Assembly (NCBI GenBank): GCA_016870775.1 | Contig: VGAK01000007.1 | Location: 1 to 64,000, forward strand | Reading direction: 5' to 3' | From: Actinomycetota bacterium | GTDB lineage: Bacteria; Actinomycetota; Acidimicrobiia; Acidimicrobiales; Ilumatobacteraceae | Length of the DNA stretch: 64,000 nucleotides | Shown: positions 40,972 through 43,176 of the stretch, piece after piece | Layout: each line of letters begins with the position of its first letter | Numbering within the stretch: position 1 is the first letter of the stretch | Translations under genes and position numbers: made by a program | The notes under the pieces: model-generated | Told to the model about the DNA's origin: nothing | Databases searched by the model: none | What the model saw: only the letters and a program-made list of their open reading frames with translations

Positions 40972-42153
40972 TCATAGCCGTCGCAGGAACCCCTCGATGG
41001 CCGATCCGACCGCAACGGTCTCGATGAGGAATCCATCGTGGCCCTCCGCGCTCCCGACCACCACGTGCTCGGTGCGCTGATCACGTCCCGCGACGCTCTG
41101 GTGGATGAACTCCTGTTGATAGGCCGGGTACAAGATGTCGGAGTCGATCGAGACGGTCAGCACCGGGCAGGCGATGCGCGCCAGGGCCTGATCGAGCCCG
41201 CCACGAGCACGACCCACATCGTGGAGATCCATGGCCTTGCCGATGTAGAGGTAACTGTTCGCATCGAACCGGCGCACGAGCTTGTCGCCGTGGTAGTCGA
41301 GATAGCCCTCGACGTCGAAGCACGAGAACAGGTCGATGCCATCCTCGAAGACATTGTCCTCGACGAGTCCACGACCGAATTTCTCGTTGAACTTGGTGTC
41401 GCTGCGGAACGTGACCTGGGCGATCTGGCGAGCAACCGCGAGCCCACGCCACGGCCCACCGTCGGGACCGGCTTCGTAGTAGTCGCCCCCGGCGAAGTTC
41501 GGATCCATCCACAGCGCGCGCCGACCGATCGCGCCCCATGCGATCTGCTGGGCGCTCGCCTCGGCGTTGGTGGCGATCGCTGCCAGTCCACCGACGCGAC
41601 GCGGGAACATGATCGCCCACTCGAGCGCCTGCATGCCGCCCATCGACCCCCCGACGACGGCGTGCCAGCGCGCGACACCGAGATGATCGGCGAGCAGGGC
41701 CTGGGCGCGCACCATGTCGCGAATCGTCACCACCGGGAACCGGAGCGCGTAGGGCCGACCGTCCACCGGGTGCGGCGAGGCGGGACCCGTCGAGCCCTGA
41801 CAGCCACCGAGCACGTTCACACACACCACGAAGTGGCGCGACGAGTCGACCGCGTGACCGGGACCCACGACACCCTCCCACCAGCCCGGTGTCGGGTGTC
41901 CGCGTCCGGCCGGTCCGGCAGCGTGACTGTCCCCCGTCCACGCGTGGCACACGAGCACCGCATTCGAGGCGTCATCGTTCAGCTCGCCCCACGTCTCGTA
42001 GGCCATGGTCACCTCGGACAGGCGCTCGCCGCACTCGAGCGAGAACGGACGATCGACGGCGAAGGTGAAGAACCTGCGGTTGCCGGCGGCGTCGCCGGGC
42101 ACCCATGCACCCGAGGCGGGATAGGGGCCGTCGCCGTGGAACGGTTCGTACAT
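40972..42153 (-). CDS. metX: Homoserine O-acetyltransferase
   Basis: 393 aa, ATG at 42153 with GAGAGGAGGG upstream. MetX-type alpha/beta hydrolase: LVCHAWTGDSHAAG near residue 70, VVCVNVLGGCQGSTGPASPHP near 105, nucleophile Ser in VVGGSMGGMQALEWA near 155, Asp in DSDILYPAYQQ near 335, and His in EGHDGFL near 372. It acetylates (or succinylates, which cannot be told by eye) homoserine in the first dedicated step of methionine synthesis. A structured leader resembling a SAM riboswitch lies 82-147 bp upstream, fitting feedback control by SAM. Confidence 0.93.
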   Translation of the reverse strand: MYEPFHGDGPYPASGAWVPGDAAGNRRFFTFAVDRPFSLECGERLSEVTMAYETWGELNDDASNAVLVCHAWTGDSHAAGPAGRGHPTPGWWEGVVGPGHAVDSSRHFVVCVNVLGGCQGSTGPASPHPVDGRPYALRFPVVTIRDMVRAQALLADHLGVARWHAVVGGSMGGMQALEWAIMFPRRVGGLAAIATNAEASAQQIAWGAIGRRALWMDPNFAGGDYYEAGPDGGPWRGLAVARQIAQVTFRSDTKFNEKFGRGLVEDNVFEDGIDLFSCFDVEGYLDYHGDKLVRRFDANSYLYIGKAMDLHDVGRARGGLDQALARIACPVLTVSIDSDILYPAYQQEFIHQSVAGRDQRTEHVVVGSAEGHDGFLIETVAVGSAIEGFLRRL

Positions 42154-42234
42154 TGGGCTTCCCTCCTCTCGGCTCGCGGATCGTTGCGCACCGGGCGGGA
42201 TCATTCGGCCTGTTGCCCCTCGCGGGACCACATC

Positions 42235-42300
42235 CTCCGCCTCGCGGCGGAGAGGCACCGTGCGGCTGTCACCCCGGTTGCCGGACCAAAAGGTCTCTCC
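42235..42300 (-). promoter_or_regulatory. SAM-riboswitch-like leader of metX
   Basis: On the RNA strand, GGAGAG (42300-42295) can pair with CTCTCC (42254-42249) as a closing stem. Inside are a GACC-TTTT-GGTC hairpin, the sequence CCGGCAACC, and ACC...GTG/CAC...GGTGCC pairing. CCGGCAACC and GGTGCC are the conserved blocks of the SAM-I/SAM-IV riboswitch clan. The 3' half of the closing stem overlaps a second strong hairpin, CTCCGCC-GCGA-GGCGGAG (42252-42235), so the two are mutually exclusive, and CCTCTC could also pair with the metX ribosome site. There is no T-tract. The class is uncertain. Confidence 0.6.
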
Positions 42301-42318
42301 TAATGCGTTGCTTTGAAT

Positions 42319-43176
42319 CTAGCGGTTCTCGGCGTCGCTGGCGAGGTGTTTGGGGAGGCCCACGAGGTCGGTGAACTCGTCGAAACCGGTGATCCGATCC
42401 AGCACGGAGCGCATCGTGCCAGCGGTGTGCAGGTGCCGGTACCCCTCGGCGAGGGCGTGCGTCGCCCACAACAGCCCCGAGAGCGGCGAGACCACGAGCC
42501 GGAAGCCCAGGCCGGCCAACTCGTCCGGCGCAAGCAACGGAGTCTTGCCCTTCTCGACCATGTTCGCCACGAGCACCGCGTCGGGCAGGGCGGCCGCGAT
42601 CGCCTCGAGATCCCCCACCGATTGGGGTGCCTCCACGAAGACCGCATCGACTCCGAGATCGCGGGCCATCTTGGCGCGTTCGATCGCATCACCCAACCCG
42701 TGCACGGCGCGCGCATCAGTGCGTGCGGTCACGAAGAGGTCGTGTCGCCGCGCGAGTGCCGCGCGCAACTTGTCGAGCCACTCATCGGCTGCGATCACCT
42801 GTTTGTCGGCCATGTGACCGCACTTCTTCGGCCACACCTGGTCCTCGAGGAACATCCCGGTCGCGCCGGCTTCCTCCCACAACTCGACCGTGCGCGCAAC
42901 CTCGCCGGGGCCGCCGTACCCGGTGTCTGCATCCACCACGACCGAGACGTCGGGCACCTGCGCGCACACTCGCCGCGCCGCATCGGCCACCTGGTCGCGG
43001 CCGAGGATGCCGATGTCGGGTTCCCCGAGGTGAGTGCCCGCGAGAGCGAACCCCGAGAGGAACACGGTGTCGAACCCGGCGTCGCGCGCGAGGAGCGCCG
43101 AGAGCGGATCCCACACACCCGGCATCAGCACGGGCCTGGCTGCGATGCGCGCCCGGAGCGCGTCTGCACGGTTCAC
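42319..43176 (-). CDS. Isocitrate lyase/PEP mutase family enzyme
   Basis: 285 aa. TIM-barrel blocks: PGVWDPLSALLARDAGFDTVFLSGFAL split over ~19-46, VVVDADTGYGG near 84 (metal-binding Asp pair), FLEDQVWPKKCGHM near 113 with the KKCGH loop holding the catalytic Cys, and FVTARTDA near 148. The KKCGH motif marks lyases such as 2-methylisocitrate or dimethylmalate lyase, or the related oxaloacetate hydrolase group, rather than phosphonopyruvate enzymes. It overlaps the acyl-CoA synthetase gene by 4 bp, which suggests a carboxylic-acid catabolic pair. The TAG stop is also the start of a TAGATT hexamer that may be the metX promoter. Confidence 0.83.
   Translation of the reverse strand: MNRADALRARIAARPVLMPGVWDPLSALLARDAGFDTVFLSGFALAGTHLGEPDIGILGRDQVADAARRVCAQVPDVSVVVDADTGYGGPGEVARTVELWEEAGATGMFLEDQVWPKKCGHMADKQVIAADEWLDKLRAALARRHDLFVTARTDARAVHGLGDAIERAKMARDLGVDAVFVEAPQSVGDLEAIAAALPDAVLVANMVEKGKTPLLAPDELAGLGFRLVVSPLSGLLWATHALAEGYRHLHTAGTMRSVLDRITGFDEFTDLVGLPKHLASDAENR

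Follow-up and report, generated by a model that had tools for sequence, protein, structure and literature searches.

In riboswitches of the SAM-I/IV class, P2 has no internal loop (PMC2864571), and the aptamer contains P4, with neither a split P2 nor PK-1 (PMC6890682). SAM-IV is marked by P2a and P2b with PK-1, and by the lack of P4 (PMC6890682). The element analysed here lies on the minus strand of a 64,000-nt stretch of an Ilumatobacteraceae genome (contig VGAK01000007.1), referred to below as the window. Its helix order is that of the crystallised SAM-I/IV RNA (sequence in PMC5393176), in which the position of P4, between P3 and the 3' strand of P1, also matches (PMC5393176, PMC6890682).

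The element shared with SAM-I/IV (RF01725; crystal structure 4L81) the order P1-P2-P3-P4-P5, a P2 without internal loop (4 bp closed by a 4-nt loop in the window), the GGCAACC/GGTGC core, CAAC directly after P5, and the position upstream of a methionine gene. On the other hand, it differed from 4L81 in three respects. PK2, formed in 4L81 between the P3 loop and the 3' tail, was not convincing in the window; in the window's genus, a G facing a G is conserved within inner P3; and a long linker leads to the ribosome site.

With SAM-I the element had in common the core blocks and a P4. Its 4-bp P2, however, did not fit the kink-turn, internal loop and loop-borne pseudoknot of the SAM-I P2, and a P5 was present. 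With SAM-IV it had in common P5 and the position of PK2, but it carried P4 and did not have the P2a/P2b arrangement with PK-1.

Identity, extent and gene context of the element

The sequence-only reading had placed a SAM-I/IV-clan riboswitch ahead of metX and proposed a covariance-model search as a check. This was borne out. In a cmscan search of the whole window, RF01725 matched 42311-42199 on the minus strand with 42.8 bits, only 1.7 bits above the curated gathering cut-off of 41.1. RF01725, and not SAM-I, was the best match in the clan. Searching the local stretch gave an E-value of 6.8e-6, and searching the whole genome 8.7e-6; the core thus exceeds chance. Model positions 1-99 were all covered. 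The aptamer is therefore of full length, as RF01725 spans the entire 113-nt stretch. The features, all on the minus strand, are as follows.

42319..43176 (-), upstream gene of the PEP mutase/isocitrate-lyase family (PF13714, 133 bits)
42316..42321 (-), -10-like TAGATT, sharing bases with the upstream gene's TAG stop codon
42199..42311 (-), SAM-I/IV riboswitch aptamer (RF01725, cmscan)
42302..42307 (-), P1 5' strand CGCATT, pairing with 42229-42234
42284..42295 (-), P2 hairpin GACC-TTTT-GGTC, from covariation in the 86-sequence set
42254..42282 (-), P3 with the SAM-contact blocks GGCAACC and GGTGCC
42265..42271 (-), P3 loop TGACAGC, where the 5' strand of PK2 would lie (PK2 is clear in many relatives)
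42235..42252 (-), P4 hairpin CTCCGCC-GCGA-GGCGGAG
42229..42234 (-), P1 3' strand GATGTG, pairing with 42302-42307
42215..42228 (-), P5 hairpin GTCCC-GCGA-GGGGC
42199..42203 (-), weak candidate TGATC for the PK2 3' strand (by eye, four pairs to GACA)
42194..42210 (-), GGC...TCCCGCC, putative arm that would sequester the ribosome site, from the linker fold and the position in congeners
42161..42170 (-), ribosome-binding site GAGAGGAGGG, from its sequence, 7 nt before ATG 42153
40972..42153 (-), metX, homoserine O-acetyltransferase (NF001209, 463 bits, cut-off 331), starting at ATG 42153

The upstream gene also matched TIGR02317 with 244 bits, which is under the cut-off of that model. A single SAM-I/IV copy was found in the source assembly, which is 80% complete. 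A search of a phage collection gave no match to the element, and a literature search for SAM-I/IV elements in Acidimicrobiia found no relevant paper. The element is a fresh member of an already catalogued class, in an ordinary gene context.

Of 61 related genomes, 34 had SAM-I/IV above the cut-off, as did 77 of the 296 genomes of the class. The 80 related metX genes, from records titled Ilumatobacteraceae, Acidimicrobiaceae or other Actinomycetota, had a GCAACC...GGTGC leader ahead of them in 72 cases. The element precedes metX throughout the clade (Ilumatobacteraceae and other Acidimicrobiia).

Further copies were also seen. In the ~1 Mb genomes of the class (L031 and others), SAM-I/IV reached its top scores, up to 77 bits, often with two copies ~1.2 kb apart. 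The L031 copy precedes what we take from its sequence to be an O-acetylhomoserine sulfhydrylase-like gene. In relatives of the window's own genus (L002-L006, L141 and L143), a second copy lay ahead of a gene for a Cys/His-containing protein of 110-166 aa, starting ~27 nt past the aptamer. This protein matched no Pfam family above cut-off, and its uncharacterised gene is a candidate for regulation by SAM.

Covariation of the aptamer helices

Set A1 brought together 25 leaders of metX, taken from the window's genus and its near relatives, in a plain MAFFT alignment, and the structure tested on it was assigned by eye from the alignment and the Rfam match. In this plain set, 6 of the 7 P4 pairs and 5 of the 7 P5 pairs changed on both sides. 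The core GGCAACC...GGTGC and the GAG in J1/2 were invariant in all 25 congeners.

A model built from A1 was used to align 87 matches. In this alignment, which was fitted to the structure and hence leans towards it, 22 of the 32 pairs of P1-P5 changed on both sides, with 371 cells showing such changes against 94 in shuffles and 96.1% of cells paired. The helices behaved as follows in the 86-sequence set: P2 was paired in 99.7% of cells, with changes on both sides in 4/4 pairs; P3 was paired in 99%, around an invariant core; and both-side changes were seen in 7/7 pairs of P4 and 6/7 of P5. For P1, the relatives kept an invariant CAU/AUG core with variable closing pairs. Over these 86 sequences, P1-P5 covaries strongly.

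In the inner P3 stem (42272-42262), a G stands opposite a G (A1 columns 44 and 54) in 25/25 leaders of the genus set.

Expression platform and proposed regulatory mechanism

A sigma-70 consensus scan found no promoter. Comparison of the leaders, on the other hand, brought out a TANNNT box resembling a -10 element. It was present in 60 of 72 leaders, lying 14-20 nt ahead of the P1 CAT, and was rare in the rest of the 80 nt upstream. The overlap of this box with the stop codon was kept in many congeners. Given the usual distance from a -10 box, transcription would begin near 42309, where P1 has its base. A terminator search found no intrinsic terminator.

In most of the 25 congeners, the linker just after P5 carries a segment complementary to the region of the ribosome site. 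This anti-Shine-Dalgarno (anti-SD) arm gave a mean z of -1.9, with p < 0.05 in 13 of 25 leaders. The SD regions vary between species, and the anti-SD arms change along with them, as in the matching arm/SD pairs CTCTTTCG/CGAAAGGG, CTCCTTT/AAAGGAG and AAAACTTTCC/GGGAGTTTT. When the linker was folded with the aptamer set aside, the SD was mostly paired in nearly all leaders.

The linker segment can also pair with the 5' strand of the aptamer (mean z -1.4, p < 0.05 in 10/25), most strongly in L066 and L078. Since the leaders share kinship, these z and p counts are not independent trials. Part of this second complementarity may come from the purine-rich, SD-like J1/2. In L068, the PK2 3' strand shares sequence with the arm that pairs with the SD, which complicates the regulatory sign. 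The second SAM-I/IV copy of several congeners had an equal layout by eye, in which GACATCAAGAGAGG can pair with CCTCTGATGTC, or TGATGTCCTC with GAGGAATCA. Taken together, these pairings in the congeners agree with a translational switch that SAM turns OFF.

In the window, the linker fold was -19.9 kcal/mol with the SD ~35% unpaired. The predicted sequestor, TCCCGCC with GGaGGGA, was no better than shuffles (p 0.35), and the anti-sequestor was weak (p 0.20). The position of the sequestering arm equals that of the significant arms in the congeners, and we infer the switch mechanism of the window from these relatives.

In our interpretation, the element is probably a SAM-I/IV riboswitch that regulates the translation of metX in cis, with SAM turning metX OFF. 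Transcription would begin at the P1 base, driven by a promoter of the element's own, and the -10 box of this promoter would overlap the upstream gene's stop codon. When SAM is bound, P1-P5 would fold, together with PK2 where present, and the post-P5 linker would pair with the SD region, shutting metX off. Without SAM, the aptamer 5' strand (P1/J1-2/P2) could bind the linker arm instead, leaving the ribosome site accessible. Translational OFF by SAM is the best mechanism because no terminator was found, the anti-SD arm of the congeners tracks the ribosome site, and in several of them the linker can pair with the 5' strand. The sequence-only reading had left the ON state open; the relatives favour OFF with SAM.

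The SD helix of the window, not being above chance, would agree with a SAM-I/IV riboswitch that attenuates transcription, through Rho or otherwise, instead of masking the ribosome site. We consider such a mode clearly improbable, as no intrinsic terminator was found and the co-varying SD helix is kept in congeners. More improbable still is a riboswitch decaying in this lineage, its core kept, its PK2 and platform eroded and little regulation left. The unconvincing PK2 and the chance-level platform of the window are in line with such decay, but P1-P5 and all core columns are intact, and the aptamer scored 116 bits against the genus model (which was built with the window included).

The sequence-only reading had instead described a ~52-nt compact element with two mutually exclusive stems. 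Its strings are all present: CCGGCAACC at 42284-42276, GGTGCC at 42259-42254, and GGAGAG (42300-42295) with CTCTCC (42254-42249), all on the minus strand. P1 and P5 were overlooked in it. The covariation among metX leaders that it proposed to examine was found for P1-P5 but not for GGAGAG/CTCTCC as a closing stem, which among the 25 congeners had 65.3% of cells paired against a shuffle mean of 64.2, with pair 19-66 found only in the window. The hairpin CTCCGCC-GCGA-GGCGGAG, taken to lie downstream, is P4 within the aptamer, since the crystallised SAM-I/IV RNA has an equal order and a P4. It coexists with P1-P3, so the stems are not mutually exclusive. A minimal riboswitch toggling between these two stems is therefore hardly credible, even though its complementary strings exist, when the one stem stays at shuffle level, the other is a covarying P4 and the full-length model fits.

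Masking of the ribosome-site GAGAGG by CCTCTC also lost its support, because CCTCTC belongs to P3 and P4, and these covary as helices. CCTCTC is absent from sister genera that have different P4 sequences (e.g. L087). By comparison across relatives, the alternative pairing falls in the linker that follows P5.

Variation of PK2 and its meaning for the clade

Many relatives show pairing between the P3 loop and the tail, with compensatory changes, as in GACAAC/GTTGTC, GACAGC/GCTGTC, CGGAAGC/GCTTCC and ACGGACA/TGTCCG. In the window, GACA can meet TG(A)TC by eye with one bulged A; the best calculated duplex was only -0.3 kcal/mol, and the calculation missed the TGATC pairing.

In sister genera (L085-L121), PK2 was apparently shifted to a 4-bp helix beside P3 and P5, with the pattern NNCC-ACGG with CAAC-GGNN. 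This helix was paired in 79 of 88 cases against 72.5 in shuffles, and 0 of 5000 shuffles were as good, the comparison being between related sequences. A short pseudoknot adjoining P3 was also tried in the window's genus and rejected (p 0.89 and 0.81).

The variation of PK2 is the sole unusual aspect of the element, and it is not decisive. It is possible, though unlikely, that the Ilumatobacteraceae have a SAM-I/IV sub-type whose aptamer works with little or no PK2, this having been shortened, moved beside P3 (as in the sister genera) or almost lost (as in the genus of the window).

What looked like a minimal riboswitch here was a full-length one misread. For the freshwater Acidimicrobiia, SAM-I/IV on metX becomes a well-supported regulatory annotation that holds across the clade, accompanied by a comparative model of the expression platform. 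With its natural variation, PK2 offers a range of forms on which the required extent of this pseudoknot could be tested.
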